Source: Vulcanimicrobiota bacterium (lineage in GTDB: Bacteria; Vulcanimicrobiota; Vulcanimicrobiia; Vulcanimicrobiales; Vulcanimicrobiaceae). Taken from it: a stretch of 11,407 bases of DNA. The notes beneath the pieces were generated by a model, which was not told the origin of the DNA, did not search any database, and was given only the letters and a program-made list of their open reading frames with translations. The stretch's first letter is position 1; every line of letters begins with the position of its first letter. The position numbers were made by a program, and so were the translations under genes. Positions 2,313 through 10,981 of this stretch are shown here, one piece after another. The DNA lies in assembly GCA_030040695.1 (NCBI GenBank), contig JASHTE010000146.1, positions 1 to 11,407 of the forward strand, given 5' to 3'.

Positions 2313-2327
2313 GGGGCTGCTAGCCCC
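2313..2327. repeat. Small perfect hairpin over the hydrolase stop codon
   Basis: GGGGCT, three loop bases and AGCCCC form a perfect 6-bp stem. The TAG stop codon of the lipoprotein hydrolase (minus strand, 2322-2320) sits partly in the loop. On the minus strand the bases after the stem are TAACTCATACAG, not a T tract, so it does not look like a standard intrinsic terminator. It may act as a processing or attenuation structure between the hydrolase and rfbB. The same bases form part of a motif that recurs in inverted orientation at 3928-3947. Confidence 0.55.
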
Positions 2328-3285
2328 CACTCGCTGCGAACGCTTGGGCGGCGGTAAGCGAGGGTTTGGCTGCGAGACTGGCGGTGTAAAGGCCGAAGTC
2401 GCCGGTGCTGCCGTCAGGCTGCGGCGTTCCATCCGTCAAGCAGTACCATACGAAGGGGATTTGCAGCTCGCCGCACGCCACCGCAAGGCTCGTCAAATCT
2501 TGTGCCTGCTGCGTATCCGACGTCTCGGACGAGTCGACGCCGTATTCGGTGGCGATGAATGGCAAGTTCGTGAGTTTGCGCAGCTGAGCGATGTTCGGCG
2601 GCAGCGACTCGGCAGTTTGCCCGTACGGGTGGAGGCCGACCATCGTCACCGCCGGGGGAAGATCCGAGAGAAATCCTTCGTAAAATGTGATGTCGATCCC
2701 GGACAAGCCGGCGGAGATGACCTCAGCGGCGTTCGGCGAGACCGCCGGAGCGAGCGCGGCAAGATACGCAGCATACGCGCTCACATCCGGCGCCGGAGGC
2801 CAAAAGTACGCTTCGTCCGGCTCGTTGCCGATCTCCCACCAGCAACCGGGATACCGCGCCGCCATCGTTTGGTGGAACGCCGCACAGATCGATAACTGGT
2901 CGCTCGTCGTCGGCGCATCGGAAAAGTAGAGCGGATTTGTGACGGCGCTGATCAGGAGAAACTTCACGCCGGCGGCTTGCAGCGGCGGGATGACGCTGTC
3001 GTAGTACGACCAGTCGTACACGCCTTCTGTGGTTTCGATGTCGTTCCAGGCTACGGGCATGCGGGCAAACGTCACGTCGGCTGCGGTGACGAGGCTCAGA
3101 TTAGCGTTCTCGTAGATCTCGTACGTGAGGTTGACGCCTAATTGGTGGAACGACGGCGTCTGCGACGTCGGCGCAAGCGTGCTCTGCGCGGACGGCACGA
3201 CCGATGAACCACCACCCCCACCACCACCGCATGCGACGAGCGCGGCCGTCGAGCCGAGTGATGCGAGAAACAAACTCCGCTTCAC
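2320..3285 (-). CDS. Glycoside hydrolase-like lipoprotein (clan GH-A type)
   Basis: The 321-aa protein starts at GTG 3285. It begins MKRSLFLASL and has a lipobox LVAC with the lipidated Cys at residue 19, so it should be membrane-anchored outside the cytoplasm. Seven glycines and a Ser/Pro/Thr linker (to about residue 45) precede a TIM-barrel-like domain. That domain shows clan GH-A hallmarks: ARMPVAWNDIE (74-84), WWEIGNEPDE with the probable acid/base Glu155, GLHPYG with His219, and FIATEYGVD with the probable nucleophile Glu247, then FVWYCLTDG near the end. Families GH5, GH39 and relatives use this arrangement; I cannot choose among them, and the substrate is unknown. It sits between rfbC (53 nt upstream) and rfbB (36 nt downstream) on the same strand, so a role in trimming or editing the rhamnose-containing polymer is a reasonable inference. 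The fold call is fairly sure, the role is not. Confidence 0.82.
   Translation of the reverse strand: MKRSLFLASLGSTAALVACGGGGGGGSSVVPSAQSTLAPTSQTPSFHQLGVNLTYEIYENANLSLVTAADVTFARMPVAWNDIETTEGVYDWSYYDSVIPPLQAAGVKFLLISAVTNPLYFSDAPTTSDQLSICAAFHQTMAARYPGCWWEIGNEPDEAYFWPPAPDVSAYAAYLAALAPAVSPNAAEVISAGLSGIDITFYEGFLSDLPPAVTMVGLHPYGQTAESLPPNIAQLRKLTNLPFIATEYGVDSSETSDTQQAQDLTSLAVACGELQIPFVWYCLTDGTPQPDGSTGDFGLYTASLAAKPSLTAAQAFAASGG
3208..3228 (-). repeat. GGT-type trinucleotide tract encoding seven glycines
   Basis: Seven consecutive glycine codons (six GGT, one GGG) follow the lipobox cysteine codon directly. The tract is in frame, so slippage by repeat units would change the length of the lipoprotein tether and not break the gene. 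Confidence 0.75.
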
Positions 3286-3338: not shown

Positions 3339-3878
3339 TTACAGTCCGTTTACGATGTCGGACAGCGGCGGATTTCGCGCGTCTTTTTCGCTCAGAATCG
3401 GGTCGTCGCCATCGAGCGGCCAAGCAATCGCAATGTCGGGATCATTCCAAGCAACACCAAACTCTTGTTGCGGATCGTACGTCATCGTCTGCATGTAGAG
3501 AAAGACGACGTCGTCGGTGAGCGCGAGGAAACCATGCAAGAATCCGCTCGGCACGTAGAGCTGGGCGCCGTCCGCTGCGCCGAGCGTCGTGCCGTACCAC
3601 TGAAGATACGTCGGGCTCTCGCGCCGCAGGTCGACGATCACGTCGTACGCTTCGCCGGCGAGCACCTGGACGAGCTTCGCCATCCCCGGTGAACCGTGGA
3701 GGCCCCGCAGCACGCCGCGCTTTGAACGGGAGAGATTCGCTTGCGTGAACTCGTTCGCAATGCCGATACCGCGATAGCGCGGCATCGAGAAGAGCTCCAT
3801 GAACGAACCGCGCGCGTCTTCAAAGACCCTTGGCCGGATCAAGAGACTGCCCTCGAGCGGCAGCCGTTCCACGTGCAT
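3339..3878 (-). CDS. rfbC: dTDP-4-dehydrorhamnose 3,5-epimerase family protein (RmlC/RfbC)
   Basis: This is a 179-aa cupin of the RmlC family, which epimerises dTDP-4-keto-6-deoxyglucose at C3 and C5 in the cytoplasm. Visible elements are the N-terminal RPRVFEDARGSFMELF, LRGLH with the catalytic-type His61, GEAYDVIVDLRRESPTY (75-91), YVPSGFLHGFLAL with His115, and the terminal WNDPDIAIAWP. Two places depart from the textbook form. After LRGLH the usual YQ-containing loop is replaced by a shorter GSPGMA before KLVQV. The usual YY pair in the later active-site strand reads TYD (133-135). Both resemble an RmlC-like subgroup used with other nucleotide sugars. The presence of rfbA, rfbB and rfbD still makes rhamnose synthesis the most likely role. 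The start is ATG 3878, first gene of the minus-strand run, with no clear Shine-Dalgarno. Confidence 0.9.
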   Translation of the reverse strand: MHVERLPLEGSLLIRPRVFEDARGSFMELFSMPRYRGIGIANEFTQANLSRSKRGVLRGLHGSPGMAKLVQVLAGEAYDVIVDLRRESPTYLQWYGTTLGAADGAQLYVPSGFLHGFLALTDDVVFLYMQTMTYDPQQEFGVAWNDPDIAIAWPLDGDDPILSEKDARNPPLSDIVNGL

Positions 3879-4104
3879 TGCTCTACAATAGCTTGAGAGG
3901 CCGGGGTGGGTCTAGGGCACTACGGAATGGGGGTGCTTAGCCCCTAATTTAAATGGTGACCGGAAGGAAGCGAGCCCTTTTGAGATAGAATAGGCGCCGA
4001 ACGGTTGGCACAGCCTTCCAAGCGGCAGCTTATGGCCGCGCGGTATGGCTGTCTCTCCGGGAAACGACGCGTATCGCTTCAGAAGGTCGAGGTTTTTTCT
4101 TCGG
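3879..4104. promoter_or_regulatory. Divergent intergenic region between rfbC and rfbA
   Basis: This 226-bp stretch separates the divergent rfbC and rfbA genes and must hold promoters for both directions. It is locally AT-richer (TAATTTAAAT at about 3945-3954). TATTGT on the minus strand (3890-3885) lies 6 nt before the rfbC start. For rfbA, TAGAAT at 3986-3991 is a possible -10 without a convincing -35. A G-rich motif at 3928-3947 repeats one found at the hydrolase/rfbB junction. I see no convincing gene in it. Confidence 0.5.
3928..3947 (-). repeat. Second copy of a TTAGGGGCT-N5-CCCCCA motif
   Basis: Read on the minus strand this is TTAGGGGCT, five variable bases (AAGCA), then CCCCCA. The plus strand at 2310-2329 reads TTAGGGGCT, GCTAG, CCCCCA. 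The 15 fixed positions are identical, and both copies are intergenic or at a gene end in the same locus. This copy forms only a weak 4-5 bp stem. Confidence 0.5.
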
Positions 4105-4908
4105 ATGAAAGGTGTGATTCTCGCAGGGGGCCTCGGCACGCGTTTACGGCCGCTCACCAAGATTGCGAATAAGCATCTCTTGCCGGTCTACGACCGGCCG
4201 ATGATCTACTTCCCGATCGAAACCCTCTGCCGGGCGGGCATCCGAGACATCATGATCGTCACCGGCGGGAACTCGGCCGGCGACTTCCTGCGCCTGCTCG
4301 GGAACGGACGGCAGTTCGGTCTCGACGACATCGCCTACACCTATCAGGAGGGCGAGGGGGGCATTGCCGAGGCTCTCGGCCTCTGCGAGCACTTTGCCGA
4401 CGGCGATCGCATCGTCGTCATGCTCGGCGACAACATCTTGGAAGACGACATCAGCCCCTACGTGCGCGCTTTCGAAGGGCAGCCTTCGGGTGCGCGCGTT
4501 CTCTTGAAGCAGGTTCACGATCCGGAGCGGTTCGGCGTCGCAGAGCTTTCCGAAGATCGAATCGTGCGTATCGTCGAGAAACCGGCGATCCCGAGAAGCA
4601 ACTACGCGGTGATCGGCATCTACATGTACGACTGCCGCGTCTTCGACTTCATCAAGCAGCTCGAGCCCTCGCCGCGCGGAGAGCTCGAGATCACCGACGT
4701 CAACAACGCCTTCATCAGAGAGAACGCGCTCTACTACGACGTGGTCGACGGTTGGTGGAGCGATGCAGGCACGATCGAGGGCTTGCACCGTACGAGCCGG
4801 CTCGTCGCCGCGCGGCAGACGAAGATCTTCGACGTGCAGTGGGAGGCGCTCTCGAACGGGAAGCCGAGCCACGAGCTGCAGCCGGCAGAGTTACCCGAGA
4901 AGAAATAG
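4105..4908 (+). CDS. rfbA: Glucose-1-phosphate thymidylyltransferase (RmlA/RfbA)
   Basis: This enzyme joins glucose-1-phosphate and dTTP to give dTDP-glucose, the first step of dTDP-L-rhamnose synthesis. The 267-aa protein begins with the nucleotidyltransferase signature MKGVILAGGLGTRLRPLTK (residues 1-19), then LLPVYDRPMIYFP, TGGNSAGDFLRLLGNG, QEGEGGIAEALGL, the metal-binding LGDN (Asp109), VEKP (157-160), GELEITD (192-198) and GWWSDAGT (216-223). Length and motifs match the shorter RmlA branch common in archaea and deep-branching bacteria better than the roughly 290-aa enterobacterial form. The frame is open back to an ATG at 4045, but I start at 4105 because the signature belongs at the N-terminus. 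GAGG lies 12 nt before this start, a rather long spacing. It is divergent from rfbC and followed after 67 nt by a WaaL/Wzy-like gene on the same strand. Confidence 0.94.
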   Translation: MKGVILAGGLGTRLRPLTKIANKHLLPVYDRPMIYFPIETLCRAGIRDIMIVTGGNSAGDFLRLLGNGRQFGLDDIAYTYQEGEGGIAEALGLCEHFADGDRIVVMLGDNILEDDISPYVRAFEGQPSGARVLLKQVHDPERFGVAELSEDRIVRIVEKPAIPRSNYAVIGIYMYDCRVFDFIKQLEPSPRGELEITDVNNAFIRENALYYDVVDGWWSDAGTIEGLHRTSRLVAARQTKIFDVQWEALSNGKPSHELQPAELPEKK

Positions 4909-4975: not shown

Positions 4976-6703
4976 GTGCCACGCCTCGCGCTCACGCTAC
5001 TCTGGATGCTGTTGCTCAGCGCGCAAGCGAGCTTCGCGAGCGGCGCGCCGATGTACCCCGACGGTGTCTCGGAGCGCGACGTCGTTTCGGGGCTCTACCA
5101 CGCCGACGCAGGCTGGTGCTGCTGGATCGGCAAGAGCGCGACGCTGGAACTACCCGTTCCCGCGGGCGCGAACGTCGTGGTCGTCACGTTCCTCATCCCG
5201 TCGTTTGCGACGGCTCGCGCCGGCACCGTACTTACCGCGTCGTTCGACGGCGTCGCCGTCCCGGCAGCGTGTTGCTTCCACGAGGGCGTCTACCAAGCAG
5301 CCTTCGACATTCCGACGGTCACCGCCAAGGATCGCCGCGTGACGCTACGCCTGACGCCGAGCACGCATTTCGTCCCCGCGCAACGTGGAATGAATAGCGA
5401 TCGCCGGACGCTCTCCATCCTGCTGCGAAGCGTCGTCGTGGAGAATACGCTGACGGGCGCGCGCTACAGTGACGGCGTTCCGATGCTGAAGAGCGTGAGT
5501 GCGCTCGTCTTCGTCTGGTATCTCATCGTGGCGCTGACCGGACTCGTCACGCTCGTACTGAGCCTGCGACGTCCTGCCCTCGGATGGGTGATGCTCCTCG
5601 TCACGGCGCCGTTCGGGTTCGCCGGCGTGACGATGCTCTGCGTCGCCGCGGCGTTCCTCTGGCAGCGGCTGTCGCTGCGGCCGCTCCTCGACCGCCGCAT
5701 GGTCGCGATGACGATCGCCTTCGCCGCGCTCGTCATCGTCATGCTCCTCTCGGCGCTCCACGCCGCGTATCGCGGCGCCGCGCTCAACGCAACGATGTAC
5801 ACCGCCGCCTACTTCCCGGCGTTCGTTATTGCGGCGTTCGCCTATCGCACCGATCCCGACCCGAAACTCTTGCGCAGCGTCCTTGCGTATCTGACGATCG
5901 TCGTCTCAGCGCTCGCGCTCGTGCAGGTGGCGTTCGGTTCGCCGGAGAGCCTGCTTCTCGACGGTCACACCCTGCGCCGGGTCGCGGGGCCGCTCGAAGG
6001 GCCGAATCAGCTCGGTGCGTTCTTGGGGCTCACGTTACCGCTCTTGCTCGCGCTCGTTCTGCGCAGCCGCGTTCGCAGTGAGGAGCTTGTCGCGTTTGCG
6101 ATCGGTGCCGTCGCGCTCGTGCTCACGTTCTCACGCGCGGGGCTCGTCGCGTGCGTCTTGGCATGCGTCCTCGTGCTGCTTCTCCGGCTACCGCGGCCCG
6201 CGATCGTCCTTGGCGCCGTTGCGGCGCTCTGGTTGACAGTCGCGTTCGCCGTGATGGTCGACGCAATGCGAATACCGAACACCGAGGGCACAATGTCGCG
6301 GCTCTTCCCCGAGCGCATCACCGACCCGTACAACGGCGGGCTGGGAACGCGTGACGCGCTCTGGCACGGCGCACTGGCAATGTGGAGGGCGCATCGCCTG
6401 CTCGGCGTCGGCCCCGGTAACTACGAGCTCGAGGTCTCTCAGCTCGTTCCCGGCGTGCGAACGCACCCGAACAACTACTACCTGCAGGCGCTGGCGGAAG
6501 ACGGCATCCTCGGCCTCCTCGCGTTCCTGCTGCTCATCGGAACGACGGTGCTCGTGCTCTACGGCAGGAGCGAGGCGTTGTGCATCGGTGTGCTCGCCAT
6601 CGTCATCGCGTTCTCGTTCCACCAGCTCCTGGATGGCCTGCTCATCTATCCGAAGGTGGGCAACATGTACTGGATTCTCGTCGGCCTCGCCACGCTGTCA
6701 TAG
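4976..6703 (+). CDS. O-antigen ligase/polymerase-like membrane protein with N-terminal Cys-Cys domain (copy 1)
   Basis: The 575-aa protein starts at GTG 4976. A signal peptide (about 1-22) is followed by an extracytoplasmic, beta-strand-rich domain (about 25-165) with two Cys pairs, WCCWIG (C48-C49) and AACCF (C99-C100), and the signature SDRRTLSILL. Many hydrophobic segments run from about 172 to the end. The C-terminal half is WaaL/Wzy-like (PF04932 type): AGPLEGPNQLGAFLG (337-351), TFSRAGL (384-390), GVGPGNYE (477-484) and the periplasmic-loop motif RTHPNNYYLQ with Arg495 and His497, then EDGILGLL. Such proteins transfer lipid-carried glycan to lipid A-core or another acceptor, or polymerise repeat units; sequence alone does not tell which. 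It follows rfbA by 67 nt and converges with the methyltransferase. An in-frame ATG at 5006 would shorten the signal peptide. A close paralogue lies at 8142-9854 on the other strand. Confidence 0.85.
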   Translation: MPRLALTLLWMLLLSAQASFASGAPMYPDGVSERDVVSGLYHADAGWCCWIGKSATLELPVPAGANVVVVTFLIPSFATARAGTVLTASFDGVAVPAACCFHEGVYQAAFDIPTVTAKDRRVTLRLTPSTHFVPAQRGMNSDRRTLSILLRSVVVENTLTGARYSDGVPMLKSVSALVFVWYLIVALTGLVTLVLSLRRPALGWVMLLVTAPFGFAGVTMLCVAAAFLWQRLSLRPLLDRRMVAMTIAFAALVIVMLLSALHAAYRGAALNATMYTAAYFPAFVIAAFAYRTDPDPKLLRSVLAYLTIVVSALALVQVAFGSPESLLLDGHTLRRVAGPLEGPNQLGAFLGLTLPLLLALVLRSRVRSEELVAFAIGAVALVLTFSRAGLVACVLACVLVLLLRLPRPAIVLGAVAALWLTVAFAVMVDAMRIPNTEGTMSRLFPERITDPYNGGLGTRDALWHGALAMWRAHRLLGVGPGNYELEVSQLVPGVRTHPNNYYLQALAEDGILGLLAFLLLIGTTVLVLYGRSEALCIGVLAIVIAFSFHQLLDGLLIYPKVGNMYWILVGLATLS

Positions 6704-6709
6704 CGCCGC

Positions 6710-7387
6710 TCAAGCAGCCTTCGTGGCCCTCACGGTTATGATTAACTGGTAGTCAGGGTCGCAATAGTCCAGCTCTTCTGGACTCAGCTCCTCGACCGAA
6801 AGGCCATGTAAAAAGGCGATCGCGGTAAGGACGTTTCCATGCGCACGTACACGGACGTTTTCTGGTGGGAAAACCTCCTCGAAGAGCATACGCGCGGAGG
6901 TATCCGTGAAGCGCCAGCAGTCGGCGTCCCCAAGTTGTATCGCGATTCGATCGATTTGCGAGATGCCTGGTACGGTGCACAGTAACGTTCCGCCAGGCTT
7001 GAGGGCGTCTTCGAGCGCTCTTAGCGCAGCGCGGAGGTCGTAAACGAAGAGCAGCGTCTGCGTAAGGATGATGCAGTCGTAGAAACCACTGCGAAGCTCT
7101 CCGGGTCCATTGTTGAGATCCGCGATGACGGTAGCGAGCGGGTTATTCGGCGTCCGGTGCAACACATCCGAATGCGTGACTCGGTTGCCGCCGAAGTTGC
7201 GCGTATAGCTCGAATCCAGTGCCTCGAGAGTCGATCCCCGGATTAGGGTTTGGTGCTCGCCGAGGAACCGCTCGATGTAGTGGCGATCGATCGGTGTTCC
7301 TCGTCCGTAGCCGAAGTTTCGCTCGAACGGAGTGACGCGACGGAAGCTTCCCCACTGTAGCTGCTCTCTGTCGGATTCGCCGGGCAT
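6710..7387 (-). CDS. SAM-dependent methyltransferase-like protein (class I)
   Basis: The 225-aa protein looks like a class I methyltransferase of the type found in glycan clusters. After a conserved-looking lead-in (YGRGTPIDRHYIERFL, 27-42) come TLEALDSSYTRNFGG (53-67, where the glycine-rich SAM motif I would be), THSDVLH (71-77), VIADLNN (87-93), FYDCIILTQTL (102-112) and LKPGGTLLCTVPG (129-141). Motif I is unusual because the expected acidic/Gly pattern is reduced to LEALD. Relatives I recall read LEIGD there. A sugar O- or N-methylation role is inferred from the neighbours; the substrate is unknown. The ATG overlaps the stop of the PIG-L gene by 1 nt (TAATG), so translation is probably coupled. 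Its stop faces the stop of the copy-1 ligase with 6 nt between. Confidence 0.78.
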   Translation of the reverse strand: MPGESDREQLQWGSFRRVTPFERNFGYGRGTPIDRHYIERFLGEHQTLIRGSTLEALDSSYTRNFGGNRVTHSDVLHRTPNNPLATVIADLNNGPGELRSGFYDCIILTQTLLFVYDLRAALRALEDALKPGGTLLCTVPGISQIDRIAIQLGDADCWRFTDTSARMLFEEVFPPENVRVRAHGNVLTAIAFLHGLSVEELSPEELDYCDPDYQLIITVRATKAA

Positions 7388-8142
7388 TAGGCCTCCTGGC
7401 GTTGGGGAGCGATGCCGGCGGCGGCCGCAGCACTCACGTCGCGAAACCAGACTCGCTCACCGCCGATCCGCCGCGCCGATGCGATCACGGCCGCTATATC
7501 GCTTGGAGCTATCTGGCTCTTGTAGACCTTCAGGAGCGCGAGCTTCTTTTCGATCCACCCGTCGTCGGGAAGGATGATGGCCTGCGAGCGCGGCGGCAGG
7601 CTTCGCAGTTCCCCGGCGAGGCGATCCTCACCGAAATACCCGGCATACGGCAAGTCTTCGTAGTATACGATCATGCCTTCGAACACCGACTCAGCGGCGA
7701 GCCGCACGATCCAATGGTCGGCGTGGCCGCCAACGGCGAGCGGAGAAAAGACGCAGCTCGGTCCACGGTCGCGCTTGATGCGCAGCATGACTTCGCGCGC
7801 GGCGTCGAGGATGGGGTCGCATGACGCGCGGTCTCGAGAAACGAGAATGCTTTCGAGCGACGGATACCCTCCACGCAACAACGGTTCCGGCAGGTCGTAA
7901 TGATTTACGGCAACACCCACTTCCTCCGCAAAACGGTGGTCTTCCGCGAGGCGGAGGGCTGTAATGCCGTCGACGTCGGTCTCAGGGAGCTCCCCGAACG
8001 GGCAGTACACGCTACGCGTGAATACCGTGTGGATCTGGCATCGCTCGAGTGGAAGTTTGGCGGCTGCGAGGCTTCCCCCGAGGGAGTAGGCGATGTCGTC
8101 ACAGTGCGGGGAAAGCAAGACGATGCTTCCGGTCGATCCCAT
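7387..8142 (-). CDS. PIG-L/LmbE-type deacetylase
   Basis: The 251-aa protein shows the zinc site of the PIG-L (LmbE) N-deacetylase family: SPHCDD near the N-terminus (His13, Asp15, Asp16) and GGHADH (His140, His143), with the intervening ALRLAED segment (62-68) typical of the family. Members remove N-acetyl groups from GlcNAc-type sugars in GPI, mycothiol, bacillithiol and glycan pathways, so deacetylation of a sugar in the local polysaccharide is a fair inference. It has no signal peptide and should act in the cytoplasm. The ATG at 8142 overlaps the stop of the copy-2 ligase-like gene by 1 nt (TGATG), and its own stop overlaps the methyltransferase start, so the three are an obvious coupled unit. 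The family call is confident, the substrate is not. Confidence 0.9.
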   Translation of the reverse strand: MGSTGSIVLLSPHCDDIAYSLGGSLAAAKLPLERCQIHTVFTRSVYCPFGELPETDVDGITALRLAEDHRFAEEVGVAVNHYDLPEPLLRGGYPSLESILVSRDRASCDPILDAAREVMLRIKRDRGPSCVFSPLAVGGHADHWIVRLAAESVFEGMIVYYEDLPYAGYFGEDRLAGELRSLPPRSQAIILPDDGWIEKKLALLKVYKSQIAPSDIAAVIASARRIGGERVWFRDVSAAAAAGIAPQRQEA

Positions 8143-9854
8143 CAGAGGGCGATGCCGATGACCGACCAGTAGACGTCGCCGACTTTGGGATAGATGAGCA
8201 AGCCGTCGACAATTTGGTGGAACGAGAACGCAATGACGACTGCGAGCACACCGGTGCGCAACGCGTTCGGACGGGCATACAAGACAGAGACGGTTGCACC
8301 GACGAGCAGGAGGAACGTGAGCAGCCCGATCACGCCCTGCTCGGAGAGCACCTGCAGATAGTAGTTGTTTGCATGCGTGCGAACGCCCGGTGCGAAGGCC
8401 GAGACGCGAAGCTCGTAGTTTCCGGGGCCCACACCGAGAAGCATGTGCGAGCGATGCATCGCGATCGCAGCGTGCCAGAGCGCCGCGCGCGTCCCAAGCC
8501 CACCGTTGTACGCGTCGGTGCTCCGCGCGGGAAAGACCTTATTGAAGATGCCGTCGCCGTGTGCTGCGCTCTCAAACGCTGCAATGCCGACGGCGAACCA
8601 GATCACAGCCGCGGCCGCCAACACGACGCCGCGCGCGCGCAAGCGCAGAAGAAGAACGAGCGCGCAAGCGGCGAGGCACCCGACGAGCCCCGCGCGCGAG
8701 AACGTAAGCACGAGCGCGAGGGCGCCGAGCGCAAAGGCGGCAAGCTCCTCGGCCCGCGCGCGCTCGTCGATGACGAGCGAGAGCAAGAGTGGGAGCATGA
8801 TGCCGAGGAACGCGCCGAGCTGGTTCGGCCCTTCAAGCGGTCCGGCAACGCGCATGAGCGTGTGGCCGAGGAGAAAGATGCTCTGCGAAGAGCCGTAGTG
8901 CAACTGTGGGATCGCGAGCACCGAGACGAGGATCGTCACGTACGCGAGCGTGCGGCGTAGCAGCGCTGGATCGGGATCGGTGCGATAGGCGAGCGCCGCG
9001 ACTGCAAAGGTCAGCAGGTAGCCCACGGCCTTGAGCGTCTCCCGCATCGCTGCGCCGTGATAGAGCGCGTGAACGCTCGAGAGGACCATCGAGGTGATGA
9101 ACAGGATGAAGGCGCCGGCGAGAATGAGGAAACGGCGGTCGCGCAGCGGTTGCAAACGCACGCGCTGCACGGCGAGCGCGAGAATCGCCGCGAGCAACAC
9201 GACTTTCGGAAGCGTCAGCGTCGTGCCGGCAACGGGCACCGAAAGCGCGAACGGATCGGTTGCGATGAGAGCGATCCATGCGTACGCGACCCGGCGCCGG
9301 ACGAGGACGAAGGTAACGATACCGCCCACGAGCAGGAGGGCGAGGAAGGCGAGGATCTCCGCGCGATCTTGAACCGGAGCGCCCGCGGAGGCCCCGTAGG
9401 TGATGCCGCTGATCGTGTCTTCCACCGCCACGCCGCGCAAGAGAATCGAGAGCGTGCGCCGGTCGTTGTTGATGTGGCGTAGCGCCGGAACGAAGTGGCT
9501 GCTCGGCGTGATGCGCATGATGACCGTATGATCGCGCGTGCTGCGGTGCGGCAACGCAAACGCGGCCTGATAGACGCCGATGCCGAAGCAGCAGACGCGC
9601 GGCGCCGCGACGCCGTCGAAGGAGGCGGCGATCGCGGTGCCGCCCCGCACCGCCGCCTGCGGTGGAACCTCGATCGTCACGACGACCGAGTCGGCGCCGG
9701 GAGGGACGTCGAGGCGCAACGCGCCCGAGGCGCCGATCCAGCAGCAGCCGCCCGGGTCGCCTCCGGGATAGATGCCCGAGATGATGCTCGCCGGTGCGAC
9801 GCCGTCGGGCCAATAGAAGGCGGCGAGTAGAGAGAAAAGCGCGAGCGTTTTCAA
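8142..9854 (-). CDS. O-antigen ligase/polymerase-like membrane protein with N-terminal Cys-Cys domain (copy 2)
   Basis: This 570-aa paralogue of the protein at 4976-6703 has the same architecture: a short hydrophobic N-terminus (MKTLALFSLLAAF), an extracytoplasmic domain with GCCWIG (C37-C38) and RVCCF (C88-C89) and NDRRTLSILLRG, then a multi-spanning WaaL/Wzy-like region. Shared motifs include AGPLEGPNQLGAFLG (337-351), TFSRAGL (384-390), GVGPGNYE (474-481) and RTHANNYYLQ with Arg492 and His494. The start is TTG 9854: upstream in frame there is a TGA at 9905-9903 and no ATG, GTG or TTG in between, and no Shine-Dalgarno is evident, so the exact start is uncertain. It heads the coupled unit with PIG-L and the methyltransferase. 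It may be the polymerase where copy 1 is the ligase, or the reverse; the sequence does not settle this. Confidence 0.85.
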   Translation of the reverse strand: MKTLALFSLLAAFYWPDGVAPASIISGIYPGGDPGGCCWIGASGALRLDVPPGADSVVVTIEVPPQAAVRGGTAIAASFDGVAAPRVCCFGIGVYQAAFALPHRSTRDHTVIMRITPSSHFVPALRHINNDRRTLSILLRGVAVEDTISGITYGASAGAPVQDRAEILAFLALLLVGGIVTFVLVRRRVAYAWIALIATDPFALSVPVAGTTLTLPKVVLLAAILALAVQRVRLQPLRDRRFLILAGAFILFITSMVLSSVHALYHGAAMRETLKAVGYLLTFAVAALAYRTDPDPALLRRTLAYVTILVSVLAIPQLHYGSSQSIFLLGHTLMRVAGPLEGPNQLGAFLGIMLPLLLSLVIDERARAEELAAFALGALALVLTFSRAGLVGCLAACALVLLLRLRARGVVLAAAAVIWFAVGIAAFESAAHGDGIFNKVFPARSTDAYNGGLGTRAALWHAAIAMHRSHMLLGVGPGNYELRVSAFAPGVRTHANNYYLQVLSEQGVIGLLTFLLLVGATVSVLYARPNALRTGVLAVVIAFSFHQIVDGLLIYPKVGDVYWSVIGIAL

Positions 9855-9895
9855 ACGCCGGAATATTCGAGCACGCTGCGGAAAGGACCCGGCAC
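9855..9895. promoter_or_regulatory. 41-bp gap between divergent ligase-like and GT2 genes
   Basis: Two divergent genes start from this 41-bp gap, both at TTG codons. The plus-strand side has a good Shine-Dalgarno, AAAGGA at 9882-9887, 8 nt before TTG 9896. No Shine-Dalgarno is seen for the minus-strand gene. The gap is too short for two separated promoters, so at least one must lie inside the opposite gene's coding sequence. Confidence 0.5.
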
Positions 9896-10981
9896 TTGAT
9901 CGTCATTGCTCTCGTCGTCAGCTGGAACGGGTGGCGCGACACGCTCGATTGCGTTCAAAGTATCTTGGGTGCGCAGCGCCTTCCCGAGCACGTCCTCATT
10001 TGCGACAACGGCTCGATGGACGGCTCGGTGCAGGCCCTCGAGGCGTGGTTTTCGGAGAAGGGCTTCGCCTACACGTCCTTCCCCTCACCCGAAGCGTTGC
10101 TCGCCGGCGAGCCGCTGCGCACGCGGATCGGCATCGTCGAGATCGGTGAGAACCTCGGCTACGCCGGCGCCAACAACCTCGGCATGCGGTACGCGCTGGA
10201 GCGCTGCAACGCTGATTACGTCTGGATCCTCAACAACGACGTCGTCGTCGGCTCGCAGGCGTTGCGTAGGATGCTCGAGCTCGCGCAAGGCGACGACGCG
10301 ATCGGCATCGTGGGCGCGAAGCTCTTGCGCTACGACGCGCCGGAGACGATCCAAGCGATGGGCGGCGGCTTCATCATCCCGGTGATCTGCCACGACACGC
10401 AGCTCGGGCACGGGCGCGCGAGCACGAGCTTCGATGATACGCCGATCCGGCTCGACCATCTCATCGGCGCGTGCCTCCTCGTGCGAAGCACTGCAATTCG
10501 CCGTGTCGGCTTCATCGACGAGTCGTACTTCCTCTATCGCGAGGAGACCGATTGGTGCATTCGTATGCGCCGTCACGGCTGGAAGCTCTACTGCTGCGCG
10601 GCCGCGGACGTGTGGCACAAACAGTCGCGTTCGTCGGGCTTCAGAAGCCAACTGCACGACTACTATGCGGTGCGCAACATGCTGCGCCTCGTGCGCAAGT
10701 TCTATCCAACGTATCTGCCGACCGCGTTCGCGTACTTCGCAACGAGAGCGCTCGTCCCGAAGCTCCTGCGCTTGGAGTTCGCGCGGATCGAAGCGGTGCT
10801 GCAAGCGTTGCGCGACTTTGCGCTCGGCATCGGCGGTCGCGCGAGCGCGCACACCGACGAGGTGCTATTCGACCAATACCTGGGCAGAGGCGAGAATCTC
10901 GTCGAAGGCGGGCGTGACGCCGGCGGGGGTAAAGCGGGCGGCGAGCCCAGGCGCTCCGGACGCGAAACGCGTCCACGCTGA
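9896..10981 (+). CDS. Family 2 glycosyltransferase, rhamnosyltransferase-like
   Basis: The 361-aa protein from TTG 9896 has a GT-A fold: IALVVSWNGW at the start, CDNGSMDG (Asp37 region), ENLGYAGANNLGMRYAL, the metal/nucleotide motif WILNNDVVV (NND at 113-115), IGACLLVRS and the late EETDWCIRMRRHGWK (216-230) with the probable catalytic base. The pattern matches WbbL-type rhamnosyltransferases, which fits the dTDP-rhamnose genes nearby, but donor specificity cannot be read from sequence. It should act at the cytoplasmic face of the inner membrane. AAAGGA lies 8 nt before the TTG. The frame is open further upstream, but that extension is Arg-rich, antisense to the copy-2 ligase gene, and lies before the natural first beta-strand. 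The last 38 codons (Gly/Arg-rich) overlap the 3' end of the opposing GT4 gene and look like read-through. Confidence 0.9.
   Translation: MIVIALVVSWNGWRDTLDCVQSILGAQRLPEHVLICDNGSMDGSVQALEAWFSEKGFAYTSFPSPEALLAGEPLRTRIGIVEIGENLGYAGANNLGMRYALERCNADYVWILNNDVVVGSQALRRMLELAQGDDAIGIVGAKLLRYDAPETIQAMGGGFIIPVICHDTQLGHGRASTSFDDTPIRLDHLIGACLLVRSTAIRRVGFIDESYFLYREETDWCIRMRRHGWKLYCCAAADVWHKQSRSSGFRSQLHDYYAVRNMLRLVRKFYPTYLPTAFAYFATRALVPKLLRLEFARIEAVLQALRDFALGIGGRASAHTDEVLFDQYLGRGENLVEGGRDAGGGKAGGEPRRSGRETRPR

Follow-up and report, generated by a model that had tools for sequence, protein, structure and literature searches.

In the solved O-antigen ligase 7tpg, two arginines (Arg191 and Arg265) bind the diphosphate of the donor and a histidine (His313) activates the acceptor (PMC10920833). 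Little is understood of how Wzy_C ligases and polymerases choose their polymer and acceptor, and the two kinds of enzyme can seldom be told apart by their sequences. Here we analyse two opposed genes, A (4976–6703, plus strand) and B (8142–9854, minus strand), in a stretch of 11,407 nucleotides (nt) from a Vulcanimicrobiota bacterium; this window is the whole of one contig (JASHTE010000146.1, C271) of an incomplete Eremiobacterota metagenome-assembled genome (G000; 1.9 Mb in 342 contigs, 76% complete). Each gene is predicted to encode a fusion of an extracytoplasmic domain marked by adjacent cysteines (the CC domain) with a membrane-embedded Wzy_C glycan transferase of the GT-C type. We tentatively favour the view that A and B are two non-canonical, glycan-recognizing ligases acting on polysaccharide exported by an ATP-binding cassette (ABC) transporter.

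Paralogous fusion proteins and the CC domain

The products of A and B are near-equal-length paralogues (575 and 570 aa, the latter from a TTG start) with 313 identities in 560 aligned columns (56%, 545 bits), and the count of 28 identical residues among the 33 from residue 330, given in the first-pass annotation, is exact. That annotation had also seen both as WaaL/Wzy-like proteins with the same extra Cys-Cys domain, and both points hold: the Pfam Wzy_C match scores 75.7 bits in A (6092–6529, plus strand) and 78.2 bits in B (8310–8741, minus strand) against a cut-off of 31.7, and adjacent cysteine pairs lie at C48–C49 and C99–C100 in A (nt 5117–5122 and 5270–5275) and at C37–C38 and C88–C89 in B. 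The CC domain, of about 140 residues, spans residues 26–164 of A (5051–5467, plus strand) and 14–153 of B (9396–9815, minus strand); in A it is preceded by a hydrophobic segment (residues 4–22) and followed by the multi-spanning Wzy_C enzyme. Because the next helix after the domain is followed by Arg residues in both A and B, the CC domain would lie outside the cytoplasm.

No significant match to the CC domain was found in Pfam, NCBIfam or PHROGs, and its best PDB profile match, a sugar-binding GH2 protein, was not significant (E 1.5). It occurs in 31 of 149 genomes of the phylum, 29 belonging to the same family as the window, and is strong in 26 (the five genomes with only weak matches were not counted as such). 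A domain-alignment search of 5.8 billion proteins, restricted to those of similar length, returned 26 stand-alone proteins with no Pfam domains, 25 of them of 146–194 aa and one of 95 aa; the six that were examined in their loci have a lipobox-like start. The stand-alone CC gene directly adjoins a Wzy_C gene in five genomes (G045, G029, G037, G014 and G044), and the four of these five Wzy_C partners that are in our tree fall into two separate clades (L063 with L079, and L029 with L031, the last two being the same genes as in L052 and L057). The domain thus appears tied to Wzy_C as one fusion and, additionally, as lipoprotein pairs in two separate clades; an old CC/Wzy_C linkage that was lost many times is possible, the deeper nodes of the tree being weak. 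CC domains also end GT2 proteins, more weakly, and a membrane protein of about 620 aa (L056, 12633–14510, and L067, 12615–14471, both minus strand), which is encoded in a locus with a stand-alone Wzy_C gene, has no significant Pfam match and is possibly an undescribed GT-C enzyme. Eremiobacterota-type Wzy_C genes are also present in two loci titled Rhodospirillales, L051 and L052. The genes of L052 are those of G014, which is placed in the window's family, and the title of L052 looks wrong.

For the analysis of cysteines, 163 CC rows were reduced to 83 unique rows with at least 100 positions and then to 78 at 90% identity; P0009, L170 and P0118 are rows without the pair 1 stretch, and some weak rows are GT2 proteins. 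Both pairs are present in 43 of the 78 domains, the first only in 27, the second only in two, neither in four and a single Cys in two (weakly aligned rows), and no other column has more than two Cys. Since 27 domains keep pair 1 alone, this pair appears to be independent of pair 2, and obligate bonding between the two pairs is made unlikely. The simplest reading would be that each pair forms a vicinal disulfide. Such disulfides can pack against sugars, and one contacts the bound sugar in arabinofuranosidase 1wd4 (PMC12102755). A literature search, which yielded largely listings and the beginnings of abstracts, contained nothing that we recognized as describing the CC domain or such a paired ligase.

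The origin of the pair was addressed with an IQ-TREE phylogeny of 93 Wzy_C cores, from which pieces shorter than 330 residues or scoring below 100 bits and repeats were left out, rooted through a long branch on three proteins encoded in lpx clusters (lpx-linked), and with a FastTree phylogeny of 65 proteins, from which four that were at least 98% identical to another were left out. In the former, the fused proteins form one clade (ultrafast bootstrap, UFBoot, 92), in which an A clade (UFBoot 98; A, the G002 copy, P0003, P0006 and P0008) and a B clade (UFBoot 100; B, P0005, P0007 and P0009) are sisters under a joint node with UFBoot 99; in the latter, support is 0.994 for the joint node and 0.975 for the A clade, but the B clade receives only 0.51. 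Members of the A clade share a deletion of 11 residues, located between early membrane helices. Since A and B fall in sister clades and not in unrelated ones, their origin from one duplication inside a lineage of Eremiobacterota, already proposed in outline, is supported by the sequences.

Fused genes were found in 14 surveyed genomes, many of them incomplete, which limits these copy counts: 11 show a single copy, G000 has two, G002 has one and a fragment, and G007 has one intact gene, a truncated copy and a 3′ fragment. Pair and orientation are kept in locus L032 (isolate JOPF017, genome G002; 87–88% identical protein), the one relative seen with both genes, where an A orthologue is present and the contig ends within a convergent B orthologue of which 122 residues remain. 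Both copies appear to have been maintained, which would imply two specificities: dN/dS between the window and L032 (ratio of non-synonymous to synonymous divergence) is 0.19 in A and, over the 121 codons of the short B fragment, 0.05. One contig of 1,372,627 bases is given for both P0003, a member of the A clade, and P0011, which falls in neither clade, and it seems that another genome has two fused genes which are not an A–B pair. In G007, the second fused copy (L136, G007:C188, 940–2592, plus strand) ends after the first helices, its frame running into what by eye looks like the end of an IS605-type TnpB, and a P-loop gene that by eye looks zeta-toxin-like (L134, G007:C223, 13665–14903) stands between the intact fused gene and the 3′ fragment.

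Active site, export route and competing functions

Comparison with characterized enzymes was informative in part. The family profile matches 7tpg (E 2.4e-10), from Cupriavidus metallidurans, and matches the solved oligosaccharyltransferase 9rmk weakly (E 0.059); single-sequence PDB searches with A and with an lpx-linked protein returned nothing useful. R387, R459 and N499 of A align with Arg191, Arg265 and His313 of 7tpg, respectively, so that both undecaprenyl-diphosphate-binding arginines are kept in A (R387 and R459) and in B (R387 and R456), and Asn stands at the ligase-His position (H497-x-N499 in A, H494-x-N496 in B) in all 25 fused proteins, A and B included, and in both rows labelled as lipoprotein partners. 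In A and in B, the two arginines and the H-x-N motif all fall inside the Wzy_C Pfam match. The ligase-His position is His in all three lpx-linked proteins. In G000 the lpx-linked Wzy_C gene (L131, G000:C313, 7952–9370, plus strand; H-x-H motif) clusters with LpxC, LpxD, LpxA, LpxB and an ABC ATPase that by its position is probably LptB, an arrangement found alike in G005 and G001, and its product is a candidate housekeeping O-antigen ligase. Since G000 has this candidate ligase of its own, A and B would be something else or something extra. One and the same genome thus encodes a protein with the ligase signature as well as two duplicate fusion proteins in which an active-site residue is changed; the lpx-linked H-x-H versus the fused H-x-N provides a natural contrast for the study of function.

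An association with export was sought through a Wzm profile built from seven seeds out of CC loci, with matches above 300 bits taken as the subtype. This subtype occurs in 17 of the 149 genomes, and a strong CC domain is present in all 17 but in only 9 of the remaining 132 (Fisher 3e-16, uncorrected for relatedness between genomes); the association is partly ascertained, since the seeds came from CC loci, and ten of the 17 genomes were not profile seeds. Among genomes of the window's genus, both Wzm and the CC domain occur in G002, G003 and G007, neither in G001, G004, G005 and G006, and the CC domain alone in G000. The nearest CC–Wzm distance in the 17 genomes is 2–12 kb in ten and 26 kb in G036, the two lying on different contigs in six; five other genomes, which have a distant Wzm, show 6–18 kb. 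Measured from the fused gene, the subtype is no more than 10 kb away in six of 14 genomes (G003, G007, G013, G017, G054 and G099). The identity of Wzm and Wzt was confirmed by Pfam, the NCBIfam matches being below cut-off. The CC domain tracks one exporter subtype across the phylum, and it is a small domain whose ligand could be sought directly. An argument from the size of Wzt was dropped: the long Wzt in L138 (7467–8606, plus strand) is a chimeric ABC–RmlA frame that joins the first part of the Wzt ATPase to most of RmlA, either a real fusion or an assembly error.

Related loci also encode proteins with a Pro-free charged stretch of 122–628 residues and a similar tail, namely L033, L038, L143 and L139 (with Wzm) and L034 (with a fused gene); in L038 the stretch has 153 residues and the protein is cut. 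The L033 protein, the only one scanned, is a methyltransferase by Pfam, and by eye the corresponding part is alike in L034 and L143 and not clearly so in L139. The tails encoded in L033 (2873–5071), L034 (3123–5990) and L143 (16120–17442) are very different in length and have a conserved FWKxKR-type end. These charged-tail, methyltransferase-like proteins resemble, in a way that is suggestive only, the ruler WbdD, the cytoplasmic chain-length regulator of an ABC-exported O-antigen. The likeness is drawn partly on one report (PMC3482155).

Under the ligase reading, a polymer finished in the cytoplasm on undecaprenyl diphosphate would be exported by Wzm/Wzt; outside the inner membrane it would be recognized by the CC domain, acting as a glycan-binding module with its adjacent cysteines as vicinal disulfides, and the Wzy_C part would move it to an acceptor. 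The fused enzyme would then transfer in the manner of a ligase, by non-canonical chemistry, and would be separate from the candidate ligase of the lpx cluster; the two copies would serve two acceptors or two polymers. Pathway logic favours ligation, because a polymer finished inside needs attachment and not polymerization. Active-site logic appears neutral to contrary, because the ligase His is absent, as it is in stand-alone relatives, some of which lie by flippases.

Several observations weigh against this reading. Asn is found at the ligase-His position in 59 of 63 stand-alone Wzy_C relatives too, and H497 is replaced by Ser in two of the 25 fused proteins. In 13 of 25 genomes (nine away from Wza) some stand-alone Wzy_C gene has a PF13440 flippase no more than 10 kb away; the active-site motif was checked in only some of these Wzy_C, and their position together with the shared Asn hints at polymerase chemistry. 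In G054 the fused gene is the sole Wzy_C outside the lpx cluster, and a flippase lies about 38 kb away on the same contig. Wzm was not matched in the 76% complete genome of the window itself; G029, G037 and G123 have the CC domain without a Wzm match, the Wzm of G128–G131 and G134 is only a distant one, that of G002 is on a different contig, and stand-alone Wzy_C also adjoins more distant Wzm (G032 and G056). PF14524, the sugar-binding domain of Wzt, is found in none of 25 genomes, and a Wzt with such a C-terminal domain is rejected as the partner on that count. A heptad test of the charged tails was passed by 7, 8 and 10 windows in L033, L034 and L139, respectively, and by none in L038 and L143. 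Moreover, for seven of the 14 fused genes the contig is shorter than 16 kb, so that missing neighbours are weak evidence there, and the N-terminus of B is below the hydropathy threshold in a simple scan that also flagged a false-looking segment within the CC domain of A. The flippase distances and the soft coiled-coil test make the ligase reading slightly less probable and that of a polymerase more so.

It is a real possibility, if a less probable one, that both copies are Wzy-type polymerases. They would link lipid-borne repeat units on the outer side of the inner membrane while the CC domain keeps hold of the lengthening chain, and the two copies would make two linkages. In favour of this are the Asn shared with the stand-alone proteins and the flippases near the latter; in addition, the lpx-rooted tree (with its long root branch) nests the fused proteins within stand-alone Wzy_C, and the G054 fused gene is that genome's only candidate polymerase. 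Yet no PF13440 flippase (the one family searched) was seen within 10 kb of any of the 14 fused genes, seven of which are on the short contigs, and PF02706 (Wzz), which 16 of 25 genomes carry, invariably within frames of 729–807 residues and mostly beside Wza, was never seen beside a fused gene, with the same limit from short contigs; the Wza and Wzz matches are on contigs other than those of the fused genes. The Wzm/Wzt neighbours, in addition, suggest an export route that needs no polymerase.

That one copy is a polymerase and the other a ligase we regard as unlikely: identity of 56% and the deletion in the A clade leave room for changed function, but the same motif residues are in both copies and a separate lpx-linked Wzy_C has the ligase His, and for these reasons two ligases are preferred to a polymerase plus a ligase. 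Where the first-pass annotation had offered either of these, two ligases would fit the family's neighbourhood better. We think it quite improbable that A and B are protein O-oligosaccharyltransferases of the PglL/TfpM kind. TfpM does match A and B weakly (E 1.2e-7 and 4.9e-5, respectively, in the order of their scores), as the profile does 9rmk, but the NCBIfam TfpM scores are 31.1 and 22.5 bits with a cut-off of 600.

Returning to the favoured ligase reading, we put forward with considerable doubt a wider form of it. The CC domain would be a new module for recognizing sugars outside the cytoplasm, its vicinal disulfides serving as sugar-contact plates, that has been repeatedly tied to lipid-linked-glycan transferases in Eremiobacterota; fused to Wzy_C it would make an H-x-N ligase class that reads the exported polymer, of which A and B would be a two-channel version for different polymers or acceptors served by one export route.

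Locus organization and mosaic structure

The window begins with four minus-strand genes, rmlD (dTDP-4-dehydrorhamnose reductase, 396–1250), rmlB (dTDP-glucose 4,6-dehydratase, 1261–2283), a putative glycoside hydrolase gene (2320–3285) and rmlC (dTDP-4-dehydrorhamnose 3,5-epimerase, 3339–3878). An rmlA-type nucleotidyltransferase gene (4045–4908, plus strand; over the Pfam cut-off, with NCBIfam rmlA below its own) is directly upstream of A. The hydrolase, with a lipoprotein-like start, a Gly run and a Pfam Glyco_hydro_cc match just over cut-off, is 90% identical in L032 (2077–3042, minus strand). Between the opposed A and B, as had been described, lie genes for an S-adenosylmethionine (SAM) methyltransferase (Methyltransf_23/11; 6710–7387, minus strand) and a PIG-L family deacetylase (7387–8142, minus strand). 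B is followed by a GT2 glycosyltransferase gene (9794–10981, plus strand; a rhamnosyltransferase model matched below its cut-off), whose real start probably lies beyond 9854, the first position of B, and by a GT4 glycosyltransferase gene cut by the contig end (10865–11407, minus strand). Because the start of the PIG-L gene overlaps the stop of B (TGATG) and the start of the methyltransferase gene overlaps the stop of PIG-L (TAATG), the three look like one minus-strand operon facing rmlA and A.

The long inverted repeat that had been proposed is real and weak, with arms of 247 nt (72%) and 117 nt (79%). A and B are 64% identical in nucleotides over 556 aligned codons (51% at third positions), and their longest exact match is 22 nt, compared with 10 nt in a control of B against rmlA; by these figures the repeat is the apparent trace of two diverged coding copies and not a recent repeat. 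The picture of a 1.4-kb cargo framed by the arms is rejected, the inner genes overlapping their operon neighbours stop-to-start. That A and B act as inverted repeats which flip the segment between them, as opposed paralogues around a variable segment might suggest, is hardly credible given their divergence, the operon overlaps and an orientation that is the same in both known examples (the window and L032), and inversion through recombination between the copies is accordingly rejected.

Between A and B, L032 has one plus-strand methyltransferase gene, which overlaps the end of A and is unrelated to that of the window (blastp E 0.07). Synonymous divergence (dS) between the two loci is 0.55–0.70 in five flanking genes; in A it is 0.39 overall and 0.32 over the last 121 codons, and in the B fragment it reaches 1.00. 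Because of these differences the locus is, on sequence evidence, a mosaic. From 4976–8142 in the window and 4836–7783 in L032, dS leaps from 0.32 at the A end to 1.0 at the B end, with unrelated genes between. The GC content at third positions is 0.67 and 0.73 in the inner genes (0.70 in L032) versus 0.82–0.86 in A and B on the two contigs; it is also lowish in the hydrolase gene and rmlC (0.74–0.77). Gene exchange at the A and B ends would explain the mosaic without inversion, and the A–B interval is perhaps an exchange hot spot.

Comparison with known systems

Polysaccharide polymerases of clan GT-C1 belong, like A and B, to the same superfamily and have no ligase His; they carry Asp or Glu there, GT127 excepted (PMC10920833), whereas A and B carry Asn, and unlike these polymerases the 14 fused genes have no PF13440 flippase within 10 kb. 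Like the Wzm/Wzt and WbdD export system of Escherichia coli O9a, the loci of relatives encode Wzm, Wzt and a methyltransferase protein whose long charged tail is free of Pro; they differ in that no PF14524 was found (25 genomes) and a Wzy_C with a CC domain is added, and the likeness to WbdD covers only the methyltransferase and the tail. Arabinofuranosidase 1wd4 and the CC domain both have an adjacent Cys pair, in the latter mostly followed by Trp or Phe; this is a likeness without shown homology, and sugar binding by the CC domain is what we infer. A and B share with the WaaL-type O-antigen ligase 7tpg (CAZy GT121) the Wzy_C core and both donor-binding arginines, and differ from it in the Asn for His313, the extra CC domain and a location outside the lpx cluster. 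Finally, the bimodular ligase WadA (GT25 and GT121; PMC10920833) likewise joins a GT121-type core to a second domain, which in WadA is a globular glycosyltransferase and in A and B would be the extracytoplasmic CC domain.

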